A DNA stretch of 64,000 nucleotides from Fimbriimonadaceae bacterium (GTDB lineage Bacteria > Armatimonadota > Fimbriimonadia > Fimbriimonadales > Fimbriimonadaceae): NCBI GenBank assembly GCA_019454145.1, contig CP075366.1:1653564-1717563 (forward strand), in the 5' to 3' direction. Shown here in pieces: positions 23,458 through 34,279 of this stretch (position 1 is the first letter of the stretch; every line of letters starts with the position of its first letter). The position numbers were made by a program, and so were the translations under genes. Below the pieces are notes generated by a model. That model was given only the letters and a program-made list of their open reading frames with translations. It did not search any database and was not told the origin of the DNA.

Positions 23458-25254
23458 TTGATAGAAAGACTGCCTCTGAATGAACTTGTCATAACTCTAG
23501 AAGATCTCCAGAATTGCGGCTGGGAAGCAATTCTCAAAACAGCTAGAACCTGGGAACTAGAGAGAATTTACACTGACTTCTTCAACGCAGCAAATAGAGC
23601 CGCAGCAGAAGAAAATCACCATCTATCGAATGCTCTAGTAGTATTGGGGAGTGCTGCTAGTCTGTATATTTCTCATGCAAAAGACAAGGACCCATTAGGG
23701 ATAATGTTTATCGGAAATGGAATGAGATCGCCTGCCATAACCGACTTTAGTGACGATCAACTTGCCCTCCTTGATAAGTTTTTACAGCACGTCGATAACA
23801 ACGAATTGAAATCGAGAATAGCAGATATCATCTGGATACGAAATAGCAATTACGCCGCTGCTAGAATCGCTAGTGCAGCATACCTGAGTAGCACAATTGA
23901 ACATCTTAATGACGACTCCTGGGTAACAGCTATTAGCCGGCTTGAGCGCTCATTTGCAATTGCCTCTAAGTTGGGGAGACGCTCGCCAGAATTTCAAGCG
24001 GTAACGAGATACACTGAACATTTATTGCTCACATCCCTACCATCCAAGAGCCAAGCTTTGGGAATCAGGCTTATAAATCTCTTACTTGACTACAAATGTG
24101 CCGATTTGCAACGAATCGGCAATAGAGCAATTTTGTGCGCTGAAGATGCTTTACAAAGTAAAGATTTTTTTCTAGCTTCTGATTTCTATGCCGTAGCTAG
24201 AAAGATTTTCAAAAGGAGCAAATCCAAGGAAGGTCTGCTCAGTGTAACGGAAAGTTATGTGTCAGCTTGCGTGGCTATAGCCAACAGTTTTTTGGCGACC
24301 CCAGGCAATCGGGGAGCAGCACAGCATTGGTTACAGTGTGCCATCGATGCAGTAAATCAGGTAGGTACTCTGCAAGACTTAAAGAGTAGCTTAGTCAATC
24401 AACTTTACAACGCTCAGAAAATTGCAATGGAAGATATGACTTCTATGGGAATACCCTACGAAATAAATTCTGAAATGAAGGAAATTTTAGATCAATCTAA
24501 AAGTGTCAGTTTTCAAGACTTCTTAGCCTTAATCGCACTTCACACTGTTATTCATTCTAAATCGGAACTTGAGAAACTGACACTTGAAAGCAACGACAAG
24601 GACATTTTTCTTGGAATGGTTGACTTCAGGATTGTTGGCGATGGTGGTCAAACCAGTGCTATTATTCCGGGCCTTCCTATTGGCGAAGAAACACCTGGTG
24701 ACTTACTTGAAAAAAAGATGTGGCACACAAGTAACCGTATCAGAATCGTTCCAGCTACCCATGTTTCATACCTACTCGCCATCCTTAACGAAAAGTTTGA
24801 TTTAGAAGCCGAATCATTTGACTGGTTACTCGAAAATAATGTTTTTGTTAAAGAAAACCGAAAAGGCCTATTTGAAATCGCTCTTCGCTCTGGGTTGAAG
24901 GGAGAATTGGAGATATTTGCTCACCTAATCGTGCCCCAACTGGAAGAATCAATAAGGCAGGCATTAAAACTGAGCGGAGAAACAGTAACGTACATAAAAC
25001 CGGATGGCACCGAGGATGTAATGCCGATGCAGGATTATATGAGGAGACCCGCCTTCCCGCGTACATTTGGTGAAGACTTTGCTTTTGAACTTCGCGGGCT
25101 CCTTGTAGAACGAACCGGATCAAATTTAAGGAATGAACTTTCTCATGGACTTTTAGCTCACCAGTCATTTTATGGGGCAAACATTTTCTTCTTGTTGGGA
25201 ATAACTATCAAGATTCTTCTCCAAGGAAGAGAACGTACAGACGACACATCCTAA
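23458..25254 (+). CDS. DUF4209-like protein with HEPN-type RNxxSHG motif
   Basis: A 598-residue protein I cannot assign a function. The middle is alpha-helical. The C-terminal ~150 residues (IVPQLEESIRQALKL; FELRGLLVERTG; R558-N-E-L-S-H563-G) resemble DUF4209, whose RNxxxHG motif also fits the Rx4-6H active site of HEPN ribonucleases. No signal peptide or membrane segment is clear. The sequence is visibly AT-richer than its neighbours (a 60-base sample at 24121 has 32% G+C, against 48% in argG at 26041). The only plausible start is a TTG at 23458 directly after GAAGGGAG, so the exact start is uncertain. Could be a defence or toxin-type accessory gene. Confidence 0.6.
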   Translation: MIERLPLNELVITLEDLQNCGWEAILKTARTWELERIYTDFFNAANRAAAEENHHLSNALVVLGSAASLYISHAKDKDPLGIMFIGNGMRSPAITDFSDDQLALLDKFLQHVDNNELKSRIADIIWIRNSNYAAARIASAAYLSSTIEHLNDDSWVTAISRLERSFAIASKLGRRSPEFQAVTRYTEHLLLTSLPSKSQALGIRLINLLLDYKCADLQRIGNRAILCAEDALQSKDFFLASDFYAVARKIFKRSKSKEGLLSVTESYVSACVAIANSFLATPGNRGAAQHWLQCAIDAVNQVGTLQDLKSSLVNQLYNAQKIAMEDMTSMGIPYEINSEMKEILDQSKSVSFQDFLALIALHTVIHSKSELEKLTLESNDKDIFLGMVDFRIVGDGGQTSAIIPGLPIGEETPGDLLEKKMWHTSNRIRIVPATHVSYLLAILNEKFDLEAESFDWLLENNVFVKENRKGLFEIALRSGLKGELEIFAHLIVPQLEESIRQALKLSGETVTYIKPDGTEDVMPMQDYMRRPAFPRTFGEDFAFELRGLLVERTGSNLRNELSHGLLAHQSFYGANIFFLLGITIKILLQGRERTDDTS

Positions 25255-25308: not shown

Positions 25309-25337
25309 CATATTATGCACAATAATCCCATAATATG
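25309..25337. promoter_or_regulatory. Inverted repeat at the argR start, candidate ArgR operator
   Basis: CATATTATG (25309-25317) and CATAATATG (25329-25337) form a perfect 9-base inverted repeat with an 11-base spacer, their centres two helical turns apart. The right arm includes the first possible ATG of argR. A -10-like TATACT lies just upstream (25294-25299). The AT-rich form fits ARG-box-type operators and would allow autorepression of the whole arg operon. Binding is inferred. Confidence 0.55.
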
Positions 25338-25757
25338 CGCATGAACGAATCTCGCGACGAGCGGCTCACGCAGATACGCCAAATCATCGCCACGCAATCA
25401 GTAAAGAATCAGGAAGAACTTGCACAACTCCTGACCGATGCTGGATATTCATGCACTCAAAGCAGCGTGAGCCGCGACCTTCAAGACCTCGGAGTTGTAA
25501 AGTCGCAAGGTCAGTACACACTAAAAGAAACTGACCTGATGAAGCAACTCGGCGTGGTAAGTGCTACCCCTGCTGGGCCTAATTTGCTGATTGTCAAAAC
25601 TGCAATCGGGGCTGCCCAACTCGTTGCATTCCAGATTGATCAACTTGGCCTTAAACAGATTATCGGAACTGTTGCGGGCGACGACACGATCTTTATCGCC
25701 ACAGCAAACCAGGCTGACCAAACCTTAGTCGCTCAAGCAATGGGGGTAAGCAAATGA
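25335..25757 (+). CDS. argR: Arginine repressor ArgR
   Basis: Arginine-responsive repressor of biosynthesis genes. The N-terminal winged helix (RLTQIRQIIATQSVKNQEEL; TQSSVSRDLQDLGVVK) binds operators. The C-terminal hexamerisation and arginine-binding domain carries IIGTVAGDDTIFIA with the GDD motif. At 140 residues it is slightly short of the usual ~150. ATG 25341 is an equally possible start. It is the first gene of the arg operon and overlaps argG by 4 bp. Confidence 0.92.
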   Translation: MRMNESRDERLTQIRQIIATQSVKNQEELAQLLTDAGYSCTQSSVSRDLQDLGVVKSQGQYTLKETDLMKQLGVVSATPAGPNLLIVKTAIGAAQLVAFQIDQLGLKQIIGTVAGDDTIFIATANQADQTLVAQAMGVSK

Positions 25758-26947
25758 AAATCGCACTCGCGTTTTCTGGTGGCCTGGATACCTGCTGGTG
25801 TATCCCGGTTCTTAAATCTCAAGGCTACGAAGTCACGACCGTCACCGTTGATGTCGGTGGTTTTAGCGACGAAGAACTTTTAGAAATTGCCGCCCGAAGC
25901 GAGCAACTTGGCGCAAGTCATCATGTGTTGGTCCCCGCAACCCAGATGTTCTTTGATGAAATCTTGCGATATCTCATCGCAGGCAACGTGACTCGCGGCG
26001 GTAATTATCCGCTTTGTGTAGGTGCGGAACGAGCCCTCCAAGCCCGTGAAGTAGCCAAAATTGCAAACCAAATTGGCGCAAATGCAATCGCTCACGGATG
26101 TACAGCTGCTGGCAACGACCAAATTCGTTTTGAAGTAGCCATCCGCACACTTGCCCCACATTTAGAAGTTCTTGCGCCAGTTCGCGACCAAACCCCAGCC
26201 CGCCAAGATCAACTCAAACTCCTGCAAGAAAACGGACTCGACTTCCCTGCTAACAAAGCGGCTTATAGCATCAATAGTGGATTGTGGGGAGTCACAATCG
26301 GCGGCGAAGAAACCACTGGAACCGAACTCACCATACCAGAATCTGAATGGCAGAGAACCAGCGGCGCGTTCATTACACCCATTTCACCAAGTACGCATAC
26401 GATCAGCTTTACTCAAGGAATTCCAACTGCCTTGGATAGCAAAGCTCTTTGCCCAGTTGATCTTATTCGTGAAGCGGATAACCTCGCCGCTTGTTATGGA
26501 ATCGGTCGTGGAATTCACCTTGGCGAAACGATTCTGGGGATTAAAGGACGAGTCGCATTTGAAGCACCTGCGGCTTATGTGCTGATTAACACCCATCGCG
26601 AACTCGAAAAACTCACGCTCACCAAACGGCAGGTTGCGCTCAAAGACCAGGTCGCGGCAAGTTATGGCGAATGGGTTCACGAGGGTTTGTTCACAGAGCC
26701 AGCCGCTCGACAAATCGAGGCACTTCTGGTTTCTTCGCAAGAGTCAGTCACGGGTGACGTAACTTTTGAACTCCGTCCCGGGAATTTGTTTGTCACCGGC
26801 GTTACCTCACCACATTCCCTGCATGCGGCAAGCCGAGCCGTTTATGGAGAAGCGGTTGGCGAATGGACTTCCGAAGATGCGAAAGGATTTAGCCGAATCT
26901 ATGGCCTTGCGGGAATTCTTCATGCCCGCGCTGGGGCAAAGCTATGA
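25754..26947 (+). CDS. argG: Argininosuccinate synthase
   Basis: Joins citrulline and aspartate with ATP to give argininosuccinate. It starts MKIALAFSGGLDTCW, with the PP-loop ATP pyrophosphatase motif, and has AHGCTAAGNDQIRFE and SINSGLWGVTIGGEE in the citrulline/aspartate binding region. The overall pattern (NYPLCVGAER) resembles the argG type found in Bacteroidetes with acylated arginine pathways. The start overlaps argR and the stop overlaps the P-loop gene (ATGA at both ends). Confidence 0.93.
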   Translation: MKIALAFSGGLDTCWCIPVLKSQGYEVTTVTVDVGGFSDEELLEIAARSEQLGASHHVLVPATQMFFDEILRYLIAGNVTRGGNYPLCVGAERALQAREVAKIANQIGANAIAHGCTAAGNDQIRFEVAIRTLAPHLEVLAPVRDQTPARQDQLKLLQENGLDFPANKAAYSINSGLWGVTIGGEETTGTELTIPESEWQRTSGAFITPISPSTHTISFTQGIPTALDSKALCPVDLIREADNLAACYGIGRGIHLGETILGIKGRVAFEAPAAYVLINTHRELEKLTLTKRQVALKDQVAASYGEWVHEGLFTEPAARQIEALLVSSQESVTGDVTFELRPGNLFVTGVTSPHSLHAASRAVYGEAVGEWTSEDAKGFSRIYGLAGILHARAGAKL

Positions 26948-27996
26948 GGCCTGTCCTTCTTGATAAAGTTGCTTCAGTCACTCTTAATTGTGGCCTGCGT
27001 CGAGAAGTAAGAGTCTCGGATACTTACAACTGCCAGGAAGGCGACGTGATAGCCGTTCGTCTCCTCACAAATAAATCCAATTACAATCTATTAGAACTCG
27101 TCACTGGGCGAATGAGCACGCTCAAAGAAGGGGATGTCATTGCGGGAGCGCTGGGCCATCGTAACGCCGTTCAAGGCTACGCGGGAATTATCCCGACTGA
27201 ACTCAAAACTGGCGACAAGGTGAACCTTCTTAATATGGGTGGAGTTCTTGGAATTTGCCAGTCCTATTCTCCGCTCGTTGGCCCGCCACATCTATGCGAA
27301 GTTATTGGCAGTGTGTTGAGTTTTCCCAACATCAATAGCCGCGCGGGAGTACCCGCCAACATTTCAACTGGATGCCCCCCTCTTGATGCAAATCTCAGCA
27401 CAGGTTGCCCTGTTATCGCTGTGGTCGGCACTAGCATGAACAGCGGAAAAACCGAAGCCTGTCTCACGATTATTCAGCAGCTAGTGAGGCAAGGATTAAA
27501 AGTCGCTGCGGCAAAAACAACCGGAGTAAGCCTGAGGCGCGACATCTTGGGAATGCAAGATGCAGGGGCGCAGGAAGTCATGGTCTTTACCGACCTCGGC
27601 GTTGTCACTACCCAGAACAGTAACGCCCCAGCTTTAACAAAAACAATGCTAAATCGGCTTAACCAATCTAAGCCAGATGTGATTGTTATAGAACTAGGCG
27701 ACGGTTTGATTGGCGATTACGGAGTCAGCGCGATCCTATCTGACCCAGAAATCTCCAAGTCTTTGACCAACGTTGTCTTGGCCGCCGCTGACCCAGTAGG
27801 TGCTTGGGGCGGAGTGACACTACTGACAGATCGTCACCAGATCACCCCGAGTTTGGTCACTGGGCCAGCTACGGACAATATCGCCGGAACCAAATCTATC
27901 GAGCGAGAAACCGGCATTAAGTCACTCAATGCTCGACATTCATCTGCGGAAATTACCGCTTTACTTTTGAACTCGTTGGAACCAATTCATGCATAA
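26944..27996 (+). CDS. SIMIBI-type P-loop protein (BioD/DUF1611-like) inside the arg operon, candidate glutamate N-acyltransferase
   Basis: A 350-residue protein of unproven function. Residues about 1-145 look beta-rich, with several short Val/Gly strands and no known catalytic motif. Residues 155-345 form a nucleotide-binding domain whose P-loop GTSMNSGKT (162-170) has the GTxxxxGK spacing of BioD, CobB/CobQ and DUF1611 proteins, followed by VIVIELGDGLIGDYG. As I recall, DUF1611 includes DgcN, a D-glutamate N-acetyltransferase. It overlaps argG by 4 bp and argC by 8 bp and occupies the place where Bacteroidetes operons carry a GNAT gene. No other first-step acyltransferase is visible. Its role in acylating glutamate is an inference. 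Confidence 0.6.
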   Translation: MRPVLLDKVASVTLNCGLRREVRVSDTYNCQEGDVIAVRLLTNKSNYNLLELVTGRMSTLKEGDVIAGALGHRNAVQGYAGIIPTELKTGDKVNLLNMGGVLGICQSYSPLVGPPHLCEVIGSVLSFPNINSRAGVPANISTGCPPLDANLSTGCPVIAVVGTSMNSGKTEACLTIIQQLVRQGLKVAAAKTTGVSLRRDILGMQDAGAQEVMVFTDLGVVTTQNSNAPALTKTMLNRLNQSKPDVIVIELGDGLIGDYGVSAILSDPEISKSLTNVVLAAADPVGAWGGVTLLTDRHQITPSLVTGPATDNIAGTKSIERETGIKSLNARHSSAEITALLLNSLEPIHA

Positions 27997-29038
27997 AAAA
28001 TCAATCCCCACCGTCGTTTTGGGCGGCAGCGGCTACGTCGCCGCCGAAATCCTTGGTCTGCTTTTAGACCACCCCTCATTCCGAATCGAAAGTGTTGTTT
28101 CGACCAGCAATCACGGCACGCGGATTGATGAAGTGTTTCCTCACCTCACTGGCGCAGCGGGCGACTTAGCATTCGGTGAATTAGAATCAGTCAAACCACT
28201 GTTGAACGGTAAGCGACAAGTCGCTGTGTTTAGTGCTATGCCGCATGGTCAGACGGCCAGCGCATTTGCTGAATTATTCACAAAAGAATCTCAAGCGAAG
28301 CTGGTTGATGTGTCAGCAGATTTTCGATTCAGCAATCCTGATCAGTACGCTGATATTTACGGCAAGCCACACGATGCGCCGGAACTTCTCAAAGAGTTCT
28401 CCTGCGGATTGCCCGACATCAGCCGCGAAACACCAGAGCAACTCGTTGCTCATCCCGGTTGCTTTACAACTTGCATCACCCTTGCCTTAGCACCACTGTT
28501 TGCAAACAAGATCATTCAGCCAAGTGTTCAAGTCAGCGCGGTTACGGGAAGCACCGGAGCTGGTCGCCAACTCGGGCCGGGAACACACCACCCTCATCGT
28601 CAGAGCTCTATGTGGGCTTACCAACCGCTGGTTCATCGCCACAGACCAGAAATTGAAATGCTGGTTCAACCCTACGAACCTAACGCAAAAGTGACATTTG
28701 TTCCCCACTCCGGCCCATTCTCCCGCGGTATTCATGCGACGATATTTTCCGAGCTAAAAAGCGAACGGTCGGTAGATGAAGTTGTTGAAATGTACGAGAA
28801 GTTCTACGCATCCAATCCATTCATCAAGGCGGGATGCCGGATGCCGACACTCAAAGAAATTGTTGGTACTAACCGGTGTCACATCGGGGTCGTCAGCCAA
28901 GGTAATCAGCTGGTTATCACATCTGTTATTGACAACCTCGTAAAAGGAGCGGCAGGCGGAGCAATTCAGTGGATGAACCGCATGTTTGGCCTCGACGAAA
29001 AGGAGGGTTTAGTCAATGCCGTCCCAGGTTGGATCTGA
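27989..29038 (+). CDS. argC: N-acyl-gamma-glutamyl-phosphate reductase
   Basis: NADPH-dependent reduction of N-acylglutamyl phosphate to the semialdehyde, the third step of the acylated arginine route. It has the Rossmann motif VVLGGSGYVAAEIL, the active-site Cys158 in VAHPGCFTTC and the family segment TGSTGAGRQLGPGTHHPHR. Length 349 is normal. The start overlaps the P-loop gene by 8 bp, and the stop lies 23 bp inside argD. Confidence 0.93.
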   Translation: MHKKSIPTVVLGGSGYVAAEILGLLLDHPSFRIESVVSTSNHGTRIDEVFPHLTGAAGDLAFGELESVKPLLNGKRQVAVFSAMPHGQTASAFAELFTKESQAKLVDVSADFRFSNPDQYADIYGKPHDAPELLKEFSCGLPDISRETPEQLVAHPGCFTTCITLALAPLFANKIIQPSVQVSAVTGSTGAGRQLGPGTHHPHRQSSMWAYQPLVHRHRPEIEMLVQPYEPNAKVTFVPHSGPFSRGIHATIFSELKSERSVDEVVEMYEKFYASNPFIKAGCRMPTLKEIVGTNRCHIGVVSQGNQLVITSVIDNLVKGAAGGAIQWMNRMFGLDEKEGLVNAVPGWI

Positions 29039-30176
29039 TTTGAAGGCCTCGCCCGAGGTCTCGGCCTACAACCGCCTGCCGATTGAAATCGTGTCAGGAA
29101 ATGGTTGCGAAGTGTTGGACGCAAACGGAAAATCGTATTTGGATTTTTATGGAGGTCATGCCGTTTCGGCCCTCGGCTACGCTCACCCCAAACTCACCGC
29201 CGCGATTGCAAAACAAGCTCAAGAATTAGTATTTCAATCAAATGCGGTAGATGTTCCTATCCGTGAATCTGCTTCTCAGCTCTTAGTTGATGTCGCCCCG
29301 GCTGGCTTGGAAAAAGTCTTCCTCATCAACAGCGGCGCGGAAGCCATTGAGAACGCTTTACGCCTTGCCTTTCTGCAAACAGGTCGCAAACGAGTAACCG
29401 CTGTTCGAGGCGCATTTCACGGCCGTACTGCGGCAGCCGCGGCAATAACCGATTACAACGAGGCATGGTATTCGTTTCCCCAGGCTCCTTTTGAAGTTGA
29501 TTGGGTCATCCCCGAATCCTTTGAAGACTTAGAAAAGTACATTACCGATAAAACCGCGGCCTTCGTTTTTGAGCCAGTTCAGGGTGTTGCCGGAGCGGTT
29601 GACCTGTCTCCTGAGTTTGTTCAATACGCCGCAAGTTTGTGCATCCAGCGAGGAGCGACGGTCATCGCCGATGAAATTCAGACGGGCATTGGTCGAACGG
29701 GAACGATGTTCGCGGTCGAGCAATTGGGAATCACGCCCGACATCGTGACGGTTGCCAAGGGCTTAGGTGGCGGATTCCCGGTAGCCGCTGTGCTTTGCTC
29801 AAACCAAATCGCCAGCAATATCAAGCCCGGAATGCTTGGCACAACATTTGGCGGCGGCCCTATGGCTTGCGCGGCAATGCAAGCTGTGCTGGAAGTCGTT
29901 TCCGAACCAGGATTCTTACCAAAGGTAGCAGATAACGCTATTTATCTGGCAGAAACTTGTCTCAAAGCAGGAGTTAAATCAATAACTGGTCGAGGCCATT
30001 TGATGGGACTGCATCTCAACCAGCCCGCCGCTCCCATTCGCCATGCACTGTTGGAGAAGGGATTCCTTACTGGCGATGCCAAGAATCCAAACGTCGTTCG
30101 TTTGCTCCCTCCGTTGATTTTGAATAAGCAACAGATTGATCAATTTGGCGTAGCTCTGAGCGAGGTTCTAGCATGA
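29016..30176 (+). CDS. argD: N-acylornithine aminotransferase
   Basis: PLP enzyme that aminates N-acylglutamate semialdehyde to N-acylornithine. Class III aminotransferase features are visible: YLDFYGGHAVSALGYAHP, FLINSGAEAIENALRLA, VIADEIQTGIGRTG and the PLP Lys in VAKGLGGGFPVAA. ATG 29016 is supported by AGGAGG about 10 bp upstream, inside the end of argC. It overlaps the transcarbamylase by 4 bp. Confidence 0.93.
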   Translation: MPSQVGSDLKASPEVSAYNRLPIEIVSGNGCEVLDANGKSYLDFYGGHAVSALGYAHPKLTAAIAKQAQELVFQSNAVDVPIRESASQLLVDVAPAGLEKVFLINSGAEAIENALRLAFLQTGRKRVTAVRGAFHGRTAAAAAITDYNEAWYSFPQAPFEVDWVIPESFEDLEKYITDKTAAFVFEPVQGVAGAVDLSPEFVQYAASLCIQRGATVIADEIQTGIGRTGTMFAVEQLGITPDIVTVAKGLGGGFPVAAVLCSNQIASNIKPGMLGTTFGGGPMACAAMQAVLEVVSEPGFLPKVADNAIYLAETCLKAGVKSITGRGHLMGLHLNQPAAPIRHALLEKGFLTGDAKNPNVVRLLPPLILNKQQIDQFGVALSEVLA

Positions 30177-31168
30177 ACAATTTTCTATCTTTACGCGATC
30201 TAGATCGTGAGCAAGTCGTTGAGCTAGTACGTTTCGCACGCGAACTGAAAGCAAATCCAATCGGAGATCGGCTTGCGAAAAAGGTAATCGGGTTACTATT
30301 CATGAACCCGAGTCTGAGAACACTTGCTTCATTCCAGTCTGCCATTGGTCAACAAGGCGGAACCTCAGTCGTGATTCAGCCAGGCGCAGGTTCTTGGTCG
30401 CTGGAATTTAGTGATGGAGCGGTTATGGATGGTGAGGCAGTAGAACACGTCCGAGAAGCAATTCCCGTACTTGCTTCTTATTGCGATGCGCTCGGAATTC
30501 GTTCATTTGCTGACCAAAAGAATCTTGATGTTGACCTCGCGGATGAGCGAATGAAAAAGCTTGCTGGATTAACCGAAAAGCCTGTCATCAACATGGAATC
30601 AGCCAGCGACCATCCTTGCCAAGCTCTTGCCGATTGGATGACTTTAGACGAGCTAGGAATTCCAAAAGATGGGAAATTCGTTTTGAGTTGGGCTTGGCAC
30701 CCTAAGCCGCTTCCCTATGCCGTTCCTCGAGCCGCGCTAACGATGGCCGCGCAGCGAGGAATGGATATCACCATTCTTTGCCCTAAAAACTACAATCTTC
30801 CCGACAAAATGATTACAGAAGCCAAGCAGCTTGGAGCTGCAAGTATCGAACATCAACATAATCAAGTCACTGGGCTTGCCGATGCTCACATCCTCTACTG
30901 CAAGTCATGGTGCGCACTTCAGCATTACGGAAAGCCTATTGAGGAAATGGAGAATCGGGCGCATCTGAGAGACTGGTGTGTTCAAGAATCTTGGTTCAAA
31001 AATGCAAAGAAGGACGCAAAATTTATGCATTGCCTCCCCGTGAGAAGAAACGTAAAGGTCGCAGATGAAATTTTGGACGGGCCACGATCCGTGGTGATTC
31101 AGCAAGCCGAAAACCGACTCCATGTGCAGAAGAGCGTGTTGATCTCATTGCTCGGAGGAGGCAACTAA
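30173..31168 (+). CDS. argF': N-acylornithine carbamoyltransferase, probably N-succinylornithine-specific
   Basis: Transfers a carbamoyl group to N-acylornithine, giving N-acylcitrulline, in place of ordinary ornithine transcarbamylase. It has the carbamoyl-phosphate loop MNPSLRTLASF, SASDHPCQALADWMTL and HCLPVRRNVKVADEIL, and a WAWHPKPLPYAVP segment typical of the AOTCase/SOTCase group. At the specificity position just before EH in MDGEAVEH it has Val90, where X. campestris AOTCase has Glu92 and B. fragilis SOTCase has Pro90. Published mutants of that Glu to Pro, Ser, Val or Ala switched the enzyme to succinylornithine, so succinyl is favoured. It overlaps argD by 4 bp and argB by 1 bp. Confidence 0.9.
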   Translation: MNNFLSLRDLDREQVVELVRFARELKANPIGDRLAKKVIGLLFMNPSLRTLASFQSAIGQQGGTSVVIQPGAGSWSLEFSDGAVMDGEAVEHVREAIPVLASYCDALGIRSFADQKNLDVDLADERMKKLAGLTEKPVINMESASDHPCQALADWMTLDELGIPKDGKFVLSWAWHPKPLPYAVPRAALTMAAQRGMDITILCPKNYNLPDKMITEAKQLGAASIEHQHNQVTGLADAHILYCKSWCALQHYGKPIEEMENRAHLRDWCVQESWFKNAKKDAKFMHCLPVRRNVKVADEILDGPRSVVIQQAENRLHVQKSVLISLLGGGN

Positions 31169-32052
31169 TGGATTTGCATCCAGTTACTGGATTGCGTGCG
31201 GCCCTGCCATATTTGCGCTTGTTTAGAGATCAACTGTTTGTTCTCAAGTGCGGTGGCGAAGCCTGCGAATCCCCAGAAACTTTAGATTCAATCATCGAGC
31301 AAATCGCTTTGCTTCATCAGGTCGGAATCCGCATCCTTCTCGTTCATGGTGGCGGAGTTCAAGCCACTGAGCTAGGCGAAAAACTAGGGATCGAATCAAG
31401 TTTTGTTGATGGTCGCCGAATCACCAGCGAGGCAGCTATTGACACGATGGTCATGGCTCTCAACGGCACAGCCCGAACGGCAATTCTTTCCGCTTGCCGC
31501 CGCCATGGGTTGCCTGCGGTGGGTGTTTCAGGGATTGATTCAGGAATCATCCAGGCGACCCGCAAAGAACCAATCAAAGTTACGAGTGGTGAAGTCGTGG
31601 ATTTCGGTCAGGTCGGAAAAATCAACTCAGTTGACCCAGAGCCGCTACTCTCAATCCTATATTCGGGAGCAGTGCCTGTATTGACACCACTTTCTGCGGA
31701 TGAAAACGGCACCGTTCTCAATATCAACGCCGATGACATAGCGGCGGCTGTCGCGGGCGCACTCGGGGCAGCAAAGTTGATTATTCTCACCCAGCCGCGA
31801 GGAATTCTTACCGATCTCAACGATCCACAGAGCTTAATCTCTCAGGTCACTCTCACTGAACTAAGTGAACTCGAAAAATCTGGCACTGTGAAAACCGGGA
31901 TGCTCCCCAAAACTAAGGCAATTCGCACAGCTTTGGAAAATGGAGTGCAGCAAGTCCATGTGATTTCCCACGCCTTTCCGGATTCGATTCTGGCTGAGGT
32001 TTTTACCAACGAAGGTTGCGGAACGATGATTCTTCCCGAGGAGCCAGAGTGA
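31168..32052 (+). CDS. argB: N-acylglutamate kinase
   Basis: Amino-acid-kinase family enzyme that phosphorylates N-acylglutamate. It shows FVLKCGGEACE (Lys for phosphate binding), RILLVHGGGVQATELGEKLG, DGRRITSEAAIDTM and the late motif LNINADDIAAAVAGALGAAKL. FVLKCGG replaces the more usual KxGG form, as in other acyl-type clusters. The TAATG junction couples it to the transcarbamylase gene. As a possible control point it may be feedback-inhibited by arginine, but this cannot be read here. Confidence 0.92.
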   Translation: MDLHPVTGLRAALPYLRLFRDQLFVLKCGGEACESPETLDSIIEQIALLHQVGIRILLVHGGGVQATELGEKLGIESSFVDGRRITSEAAIDTMVMALNGTARTAILSACRRHGLPAVGVSGIDSGIIQATRKEPIKVTSGEVVDFGQVGKINSVDPEPLLSILYSGAVPVLTPLSADENGTVLNINADDIAAAVAGALGAAKLIILTQPRGILTDLNDPQSLISQVTLTELSELEKSGTVKTGMLPKTKAIRTALENGVQQVHVISHAFPDSILAEVFTNEGCGTMILPEEPE

Positions 32053-33092
32053 TCAACTGTTCAAATTTACTGGAGCTTCATCGCGCGCTCATCGCTATTC
32101 CATCGGTTTCTCACAATGAATCTGAAATCGCCGATTTTATTTATGAAAGATTGCAAAAAACTGGCGCAAATCTCGAACGCCTAGGAGACAATATAATCGC
32201 TTGGCTCGGCGACACACCTAAGCTTTTACTCAACTCTCATATTGATACGGTTCCACCAACCAACGATTGGACTCTTGACCCCTTTACTCCGGTTCTCAAA
32301 GATGGCAAAGTTTATGGGCTTGGCAGTAACGACACTAAGGGTTCAGTGGCGGCAATGATAACAGCATTTGAACTCGCCGCCAATCAAGGGCTCAAAGGGT
32401 TAGCTATCCTCCTATCTCCTGAAGAGGAAACGGGAGGTAAAGGCACAGAAGTAGCGTGGCCATGGCTCAGAGATGAAAGAGGCTGGGCGCCAGAAGGCAT
32501 TATTGTTGGCGAACCAACCGAGCTTCAAGTCGGTGTTAGCCAAAGCGGTTTATTGGTTTTAGAATTAGTTGCTAGCGGCGACGCATGCCACGCAGCTAAT
32601 GCGCTCAAGTTGGGTGCTACAAATCCGATTTTTTTGCTGGCTCAAGATTTAGCACAAATCCCCCACTTAAACCTCCCAACTTTGCCTCAACCAACGGTTC
32701 TCACAGGCTCAGAGGCAAAGAATCAAATCCCCGCCCAAGCCACGGCAATTTTAGATATCCGCACTGAACCGGGACATGATCACAAGAGGTTGATTGCCGA
32801 GATATCACAGCACATGAAATCAGAGGTTCTAGTGCGATCCAAAAGATTAATCCCTTACGCCTGCCCGGAAAACGCAAGCATCATAAAATCTATTCAATCG
32901 GTACTTCCAAAAGCACAAGCCTTTCATAGCCAAACGATGTCTGATCAGGTTCATTTTGCCGGTTTCAATGCGGTCAAGTTTGGTCCGGGTGTCTCAGCGC
33001 GGTCGCATACAAGCGACGAATACATATTTGAGCATGAAGTCATCGCGGGAGCCGAAGCTTACTGGGCGATTTGTCAGGAGTTTTTGAAATGA
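32049..33092 (+). CDS. argE: M20-family N-acylcitrulline/N-acylornithine deacylase
   Basis: Zinc-dependent amidohydrolase predicted to remove the acyl group, probably from N-acylcitrulline, before ArgG acts. All M20 metal ligands are visible: SHIDTVPP, GSNDTKGS, SPEEETGG (general base and ligand Glu), VGEPTE and the late His in VSARSHTSDEY. Start: GTG 32049 overlaps the argB stop and has GAGGAG upstream; the frame is open to 32016, but that extension lies wholly inside argB. It overlaps argH by 4 bp. Confidence 0.88.
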   Translation: MINCSNLLELHRALIAIPSVSHNESEIADFIYERLQKTGANLERLGDNIIAWLGDTPKLLLNSHIDTVPPTNDWTLDPFTPVLKDGKVYGLGSNDTKGSVAAMITAFELAANQGLKGLAILLSPEEETGGKGTEVAWPWLRDERGWAPEGIIVGEPTELQVGVSQSGLLVLELVASGDACHAANALKLGATNPIFLLAQDLAQIPHLNLPTLPQPTVLTGSEAKNQIPAQATAILDIRTEPGHDHKRLIAEISQHMKSEVLVRSKRLIPYACPENASIIKSIQSVLPKAQAFHSQTMSDQVHFAGFNAVKFGPGVSARSHTSDEYIFEHEVIAGAEAYWAICQEFLK

Positions 33093-34279
33093 GTTCAAGG
33101 TTGTGGGACAAAGGATTGCCGATGGATCAGAAGATTCTAGAATTCACGGTCGGTAAAGACTTCATCCTAGATGCAAGGCTCGTCAGATTTGATATTGAAG
33201 CATCTATTGCCCATGTGCGGATGCTTGGCAAGTGTGGCTATTTAAACCAGGCAGAAACTGAAAAGCTGGTGGATACACTACTCTTAATTGGTCAAGCACA
33301 TGAAGATGGTAACTGGACGATTTCGTTAGAACAAGAAGATTGCCACACCGCGATTGAATCTCAGCTAATAGTACATGCTGGCGAGTTAGGTGGGAAAGTG
33401 CACCTTGGGAGAAGTCGCAATGATCAGGTTCTAGTTGCCATGCGACTTTATCTACGCGAAGTTGTTTCCCTCATGCGAGGCGCAATTAAGAATGTCACTG
33501 GCTCCCTAGAGAAACTAGCGGATCAACAAGGAACAATTGCTATCCCTGGCTACACTCACATGCAGCAAGCGATGCCAAGTTCAGTTAGCCATTGGGCGAA
33601 TGGATTTGCTTCAGAAATAACGGCTAATGAAGCATTGCTAGATGCCGCAGATCAATTAGCAAATCTCAATCCTCTTGGGTCAGCGGCTGGATACGGAACA
33701 CCAGGTTTGAAACTTGATCGAGAATTCACGACGTCGGTGCTGGGATTCAGTAAAACTCAGGAGCCTGTCACTGCTTGCCAACTCAGCCGAGGAAAAGCCG
33801 AATCTGCGCTTGCATTTGCCTTAGTTCAAATACTCAATGACCTGGGAAGGCTATCATCTGATATATGCCTCTTCGCTACGCAAGAATATGCGCTGGTTAA
33901 GCTTGGCAAAGATGTCTCCACTGGCTCTTCGATCATGCCGCAAAAACGCAATCCAGATGTATTTGAACTCATTCGAGCCCATTCTGCACAAGCGTCTTCG
34001 GATATGCAGGCTATTATTGCGCTTACTGCAAAAATGACCTCTGGTTACCACAGAGATTTACAGCTAATCAAAGAGCCACTCTTCCGATTGATTGATCGAA
34101 CATTCCAAGTGGCTGAAATCACGAGTCATGCACTGAGACGAATTGAATTCGATCCTGAAAGAGCTAAAGAAATCACAGATCCGAGCATCAATCAAGCGGA
34201 AGAAGCCTACGCTTTAGTGCAAAGTGAGGGCATTTCGTTTCGAGAAGCATACAAACGGGTTGCTGAACAAAATATGTAG
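33089..34279 (+). CDS. argH: Argininosuccinate lyase
   Basis: Last step of arginine synthesis, splitting argininosuccinate to arginine and fumarate. It has the fumarase/aspartase-superfamily signature GSSIMPQKRNPDVFELIR, HLGRSRNDQV and YTHMQQAMP. From ATG 33089 it is 396 residues, shorter than the usual ~460, mainly at the C-terminus, as in Bacteroidetes-like versions. It is the last gene of the operon. The next gene starts 11 bp later and could be co-transcribed. Confidence 0.93.
   Translation: MSSRLWDKGLPMDQKILEFTVGKDFILDARLVRFDIEASIAHVRMLGKCGYLNQAETEKLVDTLLLIGQAHEDGNWTISLEQEDCHTAIESQLIVHAGELGGKVHLGRSRNDQVLVAMRLYLREVVSLMRGAIKNVTGSLEKLADQQGTIAIPGYTHMQQAMPSSVSHWANGFASEITANEALLDAADQLANLNPLGSAAGYGTPGLKLDREFTTSVLGFSKTQEPVTACQLSRGKAESALAFALVQILNDLGRLSSDICLFATQEYALVKLGKDVSTGSSIMPQKRNPDVFELIRAHSAQASSDMQAIIALTAKMTSGYHRDLQLIKEPLFRLIDRTFQVAEITSHALRRIEFDPERAKEITDPSINQAEEAYALVQSEGISFREAYKRVAEQNM

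Follow-up and report, generated by a model that had tools for sequence, protein, structure and literature searches.

Pathway reconstructions recurrently leave the first step of arginine synthesis without an enzyme, and bacteria are known to protect the amino group of glutamate by several routes. LysX represents the ATP-grasp solution to N-protection. ArgJ (ornithine acetyltransferase) supplies acylglutamate through a recycling pathway that employs ordinary ornithine; where the transcarbamylase uses an acylated substrate, ArgJ-type recycling cannot serve the pathway. Linear acylornithine-transcarbamylase pathways are supplied by a fused kinase-synthase of the Xanthomonas type (PRK04531), in which a GNAT-like NAT domain (PF04768) sits on ArgB and the acyl group is acetyl rather than succinyl. 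ArgA, Cabys_1732 and Bacteroides BT3761 are synthases of the GNAT fold. In Bacteroides, GapMind had no candidate for ArgA or ArgJ until genetic data closed the gap: BT3761, which shares >50% identity with the N-acetylglutamate synthase Cabys_1732, has a part in making arginine, with N-succinylglutamate formation proposed for it (PMC7311316). Other Holophagaceae have been reported without an N-acetylglutamate synthase (PMC11561045).

Two P-loop proteins are also relevant here. DgcN (D-glutamate N-acetyltransferase; DUF1611, PF07755; PDB 7xrj), a protein of D-amino acid catabolism for which direct acetyl transfer is reported, is labelled an N-acetyltransferase both in NCBIfam and in its PDB title. 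BioD (dethiobiotin synthetase) carries out an ATP-dependent carboxylation and ring closure in the biotin pathway; together with CTP synthase and formyl-THF ligase, it exemplifies amide formation via an activated carbonyl or carboxylate within the same fold class.

Here we describe an unstudied P-loop protein, referred to as X, which is encoded beside argC in a 64,000-nucleotide stretch of a Fimbriimonadaceae genome (contig CP075366.1; hereafter, the window) and which appears to replace the known first-step enzymes in bacteria of at least five phyla. No description of the X family was found in the open-licence literature. The original prediction, made from the window alone, took X for a non-GNAT P-loop N-acylglutamate synthase. 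We consider it probable (about 0.82) that X is an N-acyl-L-glutamate synthase in this organism, most likely making N-succinyl-L-glutamate, a reaction that we infer from its place in the operon, the pattern of replacement, conservation within the family, the predicted fold and the residue type of the accompanying transcarbamylase.

Results

X occupies an arginine operon that lacks a recognisable first-step enzyme

The window genome is a single 2.76-Mb contig, 99.6% complete, whose relatives in our GTDB scan are labelled Fimbriimonadaceae or Armatimonadetes. Annotation with Pfam and NCBIfam models gave the gene order argR-argG-X-argC-argD-transcarbamylase-argB-argE-argH (Table 1). As had been predicted, all later steps of the acylated arginine route have genes here, the first being the sole one missing, and neither ArgA, ArgJ nor a GNAT was found within the operon. 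The ArgH protein (402 aa) aligns with the 455-position argH model over positions 10-386, its C-terminal ASL_C2 domain being almost missing. Immediately 5' of argR, on the same strand, lies a 598-aa protein of unrecognised type (window 23458-25254), preceded by a divergent glycoside-hydrolase-like gene.

Table 1. Features of the arginine operon and of gene X (window coordinates)
Feature	Position	Strand	Basis
argR, arginine repressor	25335..25757	+	Pfam and NCBIfam
argG, argininosuccinate synthase	25754..26947	+	TIGR00032 over cut-off
X, proposed N-succinyl-L-glutamate synthase, P-loop protein, 350 aa	26944..27996	+	ORF; conservation; replacement pattern
N-terminal beta domain of X, aa 1-150	26944..27393	+	AlphaFold pLDDT 92 alone; no PDB match
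Walker A motif GTSMNSGKT, aa 162-170 (G162-TSMNS-G168-K169-T170)	27427..27453	+	BioD/DUF1611 spacing
K191-TTG-V-S-L-R-R-D200-...-D206-x-GA motif, at place of BioD K/D motif	27514..27570	+	K191, D200, D206, G208, A209 invariant
E250-LGDG-..-G-x-YGV motif, at place of EGxG motif (BioD, DUF1611)	27691..27726	+	Conserved residues
argC, N-acyl-glutamyl-phosphate reductase	27989..29038	+	TIGR01850 over cut-off
argD, N-acylornithine aminotransferase	29016..30176	+	PF00202; best NCBIfam models = argD
N-acylornithine carbamoyltransferase, predicted succinylornithine type (Val90, codon 30440-30442)	30173..31168	+	NF003384 over cut-off
argB, N-acylglutamate kinase, without fused acetyltransferase domain	31168..32052	+	TIGR00761 over cut-off
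M20 deacylase (argE/dapE type), proposed N-acylcitrulline deacylase	32016..33092	+	PF01546, PF07687
argH, argininosuccinate lyase, C-terminally short	33071..34279	+	TIGR00838 over cut-off

Gene X starts with ATG and, as the original prediction stated, overlaps both of its neighbours, sharing 4 nt with argG and 8 nt with argC. A chance open frame is ruled out by the expectation for this length (~0.0002 per 64 kb) and by conservation in relatives (98% in one sister genome and 38-75% in other members of the bacterial family), confirming that the gene is real. The predicted spacing of its Walker A motif, that of BioD and DUF1611, was borne out: G162, M165, G168 and K169 are invariant in all aligned sequences (A1 and A2), and position 170 is T or S. 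In the E250-LGDG motif, E250, G252, D253, G254, Y259 and G260 are invariant. Altogether, ~60 invariant positions are spread across both domains of X, a pattern that, judged from the alignments, would be typical of an enzyme. In one relative (L065:8913-9976; genome G119, single contig) X is broken into two overlapping frames, by either a frameshift or a sequencing error.

X combines a BioD-like P-loop domain with an unmatched N-terminal domain

An AlphaFold model of X, built from 50 aligned family members, reached a pLDDT of 93.9 and a pTM of 0.91. Its P-loop domain (residues 152-350) gave its best fold matches with the two DUF1611 structures 2g0t (Z 17.6) and 2obn (Z 16.8), CTP synthase (Z 17.4), BioD (Z 16.7) and DgcN (7xrj; Z 15.4), and it also resembles signalling or assembly GTPases. 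In the predicted model the DUF1611, CTP synthase, BioD and DgcN matches are near ties, and the fold test is not exclusive. Residues 1-150 modelled alone gave a pLDDT of 92.4, yet this domain found no match in the PDB (Foldseek best E 0.46; VIA-align best Z 2.8), in keeping with the earlier caution that the N-terminal ~145 residues look unlike DgcN. Neither X nor its profile gave a significant hit when searched by sequence against the PDB.

The original prediction had also proposed a profile or structure search against DUF1611/DgcN and BioD. The P-loop domain matches both in fold, whereas the DUF1611 profile matches are weak: Pfam DUF1611 (PF07755) scores 22.9 bits on X, under its cut-off of 25, over 41 residues (153-193), and hhalign of X against DUF1611 gave a probability of 13% (E 0.002) with shallow alignments on both sides. 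A DUF1611 N-terminal model was not among the Pfam matches of X, and the DgcN equivalog NF041892 (NCBIfam) matched neither X nor any of 50 X-family members; a canonical DUF1611 protein of the same phylum does match NF041892, below cut-off. DgcN and canonical DUF1611 proteins carry Met where the Walker A Thr stands (GTDCSVGKM, GTDMAVGKM), whereas X has GKT or GKS; the retained T/S suggests that X may still handle Mg-NTP. Canonical DUF1611 genes occur alongside X in many genomes. In the bacterial family most genomes carry a canonical, DgcN-like DUF1611 gene; the window genome (G000) and its genus sisters do not. MobB (PF03205) falls just over its cut-off on X (30.2 vs 26.6), and the molybdopterin guanine dinucleotide protein B equivalog TIGR00176 stays far below (29.2 bits vs 76.2). 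The acyltransferase models PF00583, PF01960, PF04768 and TIGR01890 were not among the Pfam and NCBIfam matches. X is thus best described as a separate family, placed outside DUF1611 by its sequence, with a P-loop domain in common.

No conventional synthase was found to track with X

The original prediction was exposed to an ArgA, ArgJ or GNAT synthase encoded elsewhere in the genome. ArgJ is absent from the entire window genome, and the sole match of the ArgA model TIGR01890 is the ArgB kinase; it covers positions 2-281 of 429 and ends there, ruling out an ArgA hidden within ArgB. The genome does hold 18 PF00583 GNAT matches, all outside the operon. We joined 16 of these 18 into two concatenated queries and profiled them in genomes that have X, that have ArgJ or that lack argC; the comparison is confined to GNATs of PF00583. 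RimI and the GNATs located at C1 1019 kb, 516 kb, 2507 kb, 1772 kb and 2069 kb, which are conserved among X genomes, were also found in ArgJ genomes or argC-less genomes, and the others were patchy. None of the 16 tracks with X or behaves as a dedicated acylglutamate synthase would, and on this PF00583 sample we rejected a GNAT elsewhere as the synthase; the challenge was thus answered for ArgA and ArgJ and, among GNATs, for the 16 profiled. A full ArgA was likewise absent from all 22 X genomes searched, where ArgJ was represented by one 98-aa fragment. Since the carbamoyltransferase substrate is acylated and ArgJ recycling is therefore unusable, a true synthase is needed.

X and known first-step enzymes replace one another

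In a sample of 85 genomes of the bacterial family, 68 carried argC: 34 held X without ArgJ, 32 ArgJ without X, none both and two neither, while the 17 genomes without argC had neither X nor ArgJ. The original prediction had suggested a survey of whether genomes with X lack argA, argJ and the GNAT gene; for ArgJ, the family shows this exclusivity. ArgJ, a protein unrelated to X, fills the slot beside argC in relatives without X. The two types even mix within one genus (g6), with X in G081, G084, G085 and G098 and ArgJ in G080, G082, G083 and others. In the ArgC tree, X-type, ArgJ-type and LysX-type sequences fall on separate sides; the X-argC pair therefore moves as a single cassette, so that the 34 X cases do not amount to 34 independent events.

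Two apparent exceptions, G078 (L168) and G125 (L169), were rejected as such: their argC is LysY, within LysX clusters that hold argC-argB-argD homologues, and one of the two also holds a contig breaking inside an acyl-type argC. These clusters represent a third solution to N-protection within a single family.

A comparable replacement was found in a gammaproteobacterial order, of which 147 genomes were sampled around a Woeseiaceae-like genome, with true X defined by E < 1e-60. True X was present in 109, nearly always with an ArgB matching the kinase part only. In nineteen others ArgB is divergent, its frame measuring 417-466 aa in most; all six of those examined combine the kinase with the NAT domain of N-acetylglutamate synthase (PF04768), and NF003387 was over its cut-off in three of three tested. 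None of these 19 genomes has true X, and five have only a distant paralogue (E 1e-33 to 1e-43). In this second lineage, and with a different enzyme, X stands where the known synthase domain stands in sister genomes.

X is fixed directly upstream of argC in several phyla

Scanning GTDB species genomes recovered at least 532 relatives; the genomes that carry X are mostly MAGs. In the best 80 of these, whose loci we examined, X lies directly upstream of argC in all 80 (including L112, where an over-long open frame masked argC), and in about half its stop codon overlaps the argC start. These 80 loci come from Armatimonadota, Acidobacteriota, Planctomycetota, Gammaproteobacteria and Myxococcota (one MAG labelled Deltaproteobacteria). 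The X-argC pair is fixed while operon order varies, four orders being seen: argR-argG-X-argC; argR-X-argC-argD; transcarbamylase-argB-argE-argH-argG-X-argC; and X-argC-transcarbamylase. An acylornithine-type carbamoyltransferase accompanies X in nearly all complete loci, and the M20 deacylase gene is missing from many gammaproteobacterial X operons.

The accompanying transcarbamylases point to a succinyl group

Glu92 of the X. campestris AOTCase corresponds to Val90 of the window carbamoyltransferase. Crystal structures exist for the A, S, P and V variants of position 92 (3l02, 3l05, 3l04 and 3l06, respectively), and S, P, A or V at this position makes succinyl the preferred substrate (GapMind, PMC7311316). 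Among 92 X-linked transcarbamylases the position is A in 60, V in 20, Q in 8, T in 3 and P in 1, and in none is it E; that is, A, V or P in 81 and Q or T in 11. With A, V or P in most and E in none, X most likely makes N-succinylglutamate, the acyl group of its product being most likely succinyl rather than acetyl, at least over most of its range.

Discussion

A synthase role for X, unrelated to the GNAT, NAT or ArgJ enzymes, is the best explanation of these observations. The central idea of the original prediction accordingly finds support in the mutual exclusion of X with ArgJ and with the kinase-NAT fusion, in the argC linkage across five phyla and in the absence, among the GNATs profiled, of one that follows X, the activity itself being deduced from these patterns. 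X would share its reaction and pathway position with ArgA, Cabys_1732 and BT3761, but is unrelated to them in sequence and structure. With DgcN it shares the P-loop fold, the GTxxxxGK spacing, the TG..D..GA and E.xG motifs and, going by DgcN's name, the N-acylation of a glutamate amino group that we propose for X; unlike DgcN, it belongs to arginine synthesis. With BioD it has in common the fold, a GTxxxxGKT Walker A, a Lys after it and an acidic EGxG-type motif, though BioD is devoid of the N-terminal beta domain.

In the proposed route, X would acylate L-glutamate, probably to N-succinyl-L-glutamate, after which ArgB, ArgC, ArgD and the transcarbamylase would carry the acyl group as far as N-acylcitrulline, from which the M20 deacylase would take it off. 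The activating cofactor may sit in the C-terminal SIMIBI-class P-loop domain of X, with the glutamate site formed by the N-terminal beta domain. As to the chemistry, the intact Walker A Thr/Ser, Lys191, Asp200/Asp206 and Glu250 incline us slightly towards ATP-dependent ligation of succinate via succinyl phosphate; direct transfer from succinyl-CoA, with DgcN as its precedent, is nearly as plausible. A bolder version is tentative and falls a little short of even odds: X would be the first ATP-dependent N-acyl-L-glutamate synthetase, a BioD-like protein with a new N-terminal fold that joins succinate and glutamate at the expense of ATP and without acyl-CoA, serving as the standard first arginine enzyme in several uncultured-rich lineages.

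Could X instead be a true DgcN/DUF1611 protein, i.e., an acetyl-CoA-dependent N-acetyltransferase recruited to L-glutamate? The shared motifs and the presence of 2g0t, 2obn and 7xrj among the best fold matches speak for it, but BioD and CTP synthase score equally high, the DUF1611 profile and hhalign scores are low, the N-terminal domain appears to differ, GKM stands against GKT or GKS, and many genomes with X also have canonical DUF1611 genes, making this reading unlikely. It is more improbable still that X is a regulator or assembly factor (a nucleotide sensor or scaffold) while an unrecognised GNAT or other enzyme makes the acylglutamate. The MobB match and the resemblance to signalling and assembly GTPases would suit such a role, and the 18 GNAT matches offer candidates; however, X is absent exactly where ArgJ, the fused NAT synthase or LysX occurs, no profiled GNAT tracks with it, and its invariant residues span both domains as they typically do in an enzyme.

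The near-constant company of an acylornithine-type carbamoyltransferase, and the absence of an M20 deacylase gene from many gammaproteobacterial operons, would also agree with X performing another step of the acyl-citrulline route, such as removing the acyl group, recycling it or supplying its donor. We deem this very unlikely, given that in the window the M20 deacylase lies in the same operon as X and the first step is the sole gap, and that the synthase domain is exactly what sets fused-synthase genomes apart from those with X. Finally, the prototrophy of the window organism is undocumented, and its operon might handle an imported acylated precursor rather than make arginine from glutamate, with X unrelated to the pathway. 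This is hardly credible beside a complete operon with its own ArgR, an X-argC cassette that recurs across phyla in every one of the best loci, and the 109 X-bearing genomes of a single gammaproteobacterial order.

If X is the synthase that we propose, hundreds of species (the scan gave at least 532 matches) would gain a named and testable family for the missing first step, auxotrophy predictions would be corrected, and another evolutionary route to glutamate N-protection would join ArgA/GNAT, the NAT fusions, ArgJ and LysX.

Distant relatives of X were also seen in other surroundings. X-like proteins of ~27-32% identity are encoded next to ABC transporters, frequently together with an alpha/beta hydrolase, on Rhodobacterales plasmids and in some Armatimonadota (L164:6908-7957, L165:6890-7984, L167:6893-7942, L068:662-1714 and L069:7985-9076); they would form a sister family. 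On a Priestia megaterium plasmid (NZ_CP085446; L166:6899-7957), a relative with 26% identity over 86% of X sits between two ATP-grasp genes in a phosphonate-type cluster, which also encodes an ornithine carbamoyltransferase, TPP enzymes, an M20 peptidase and a PEP-mutase-family protein; this content would fit a natural-product pathway in which an amino acid is protected by acylation and later deprotected.
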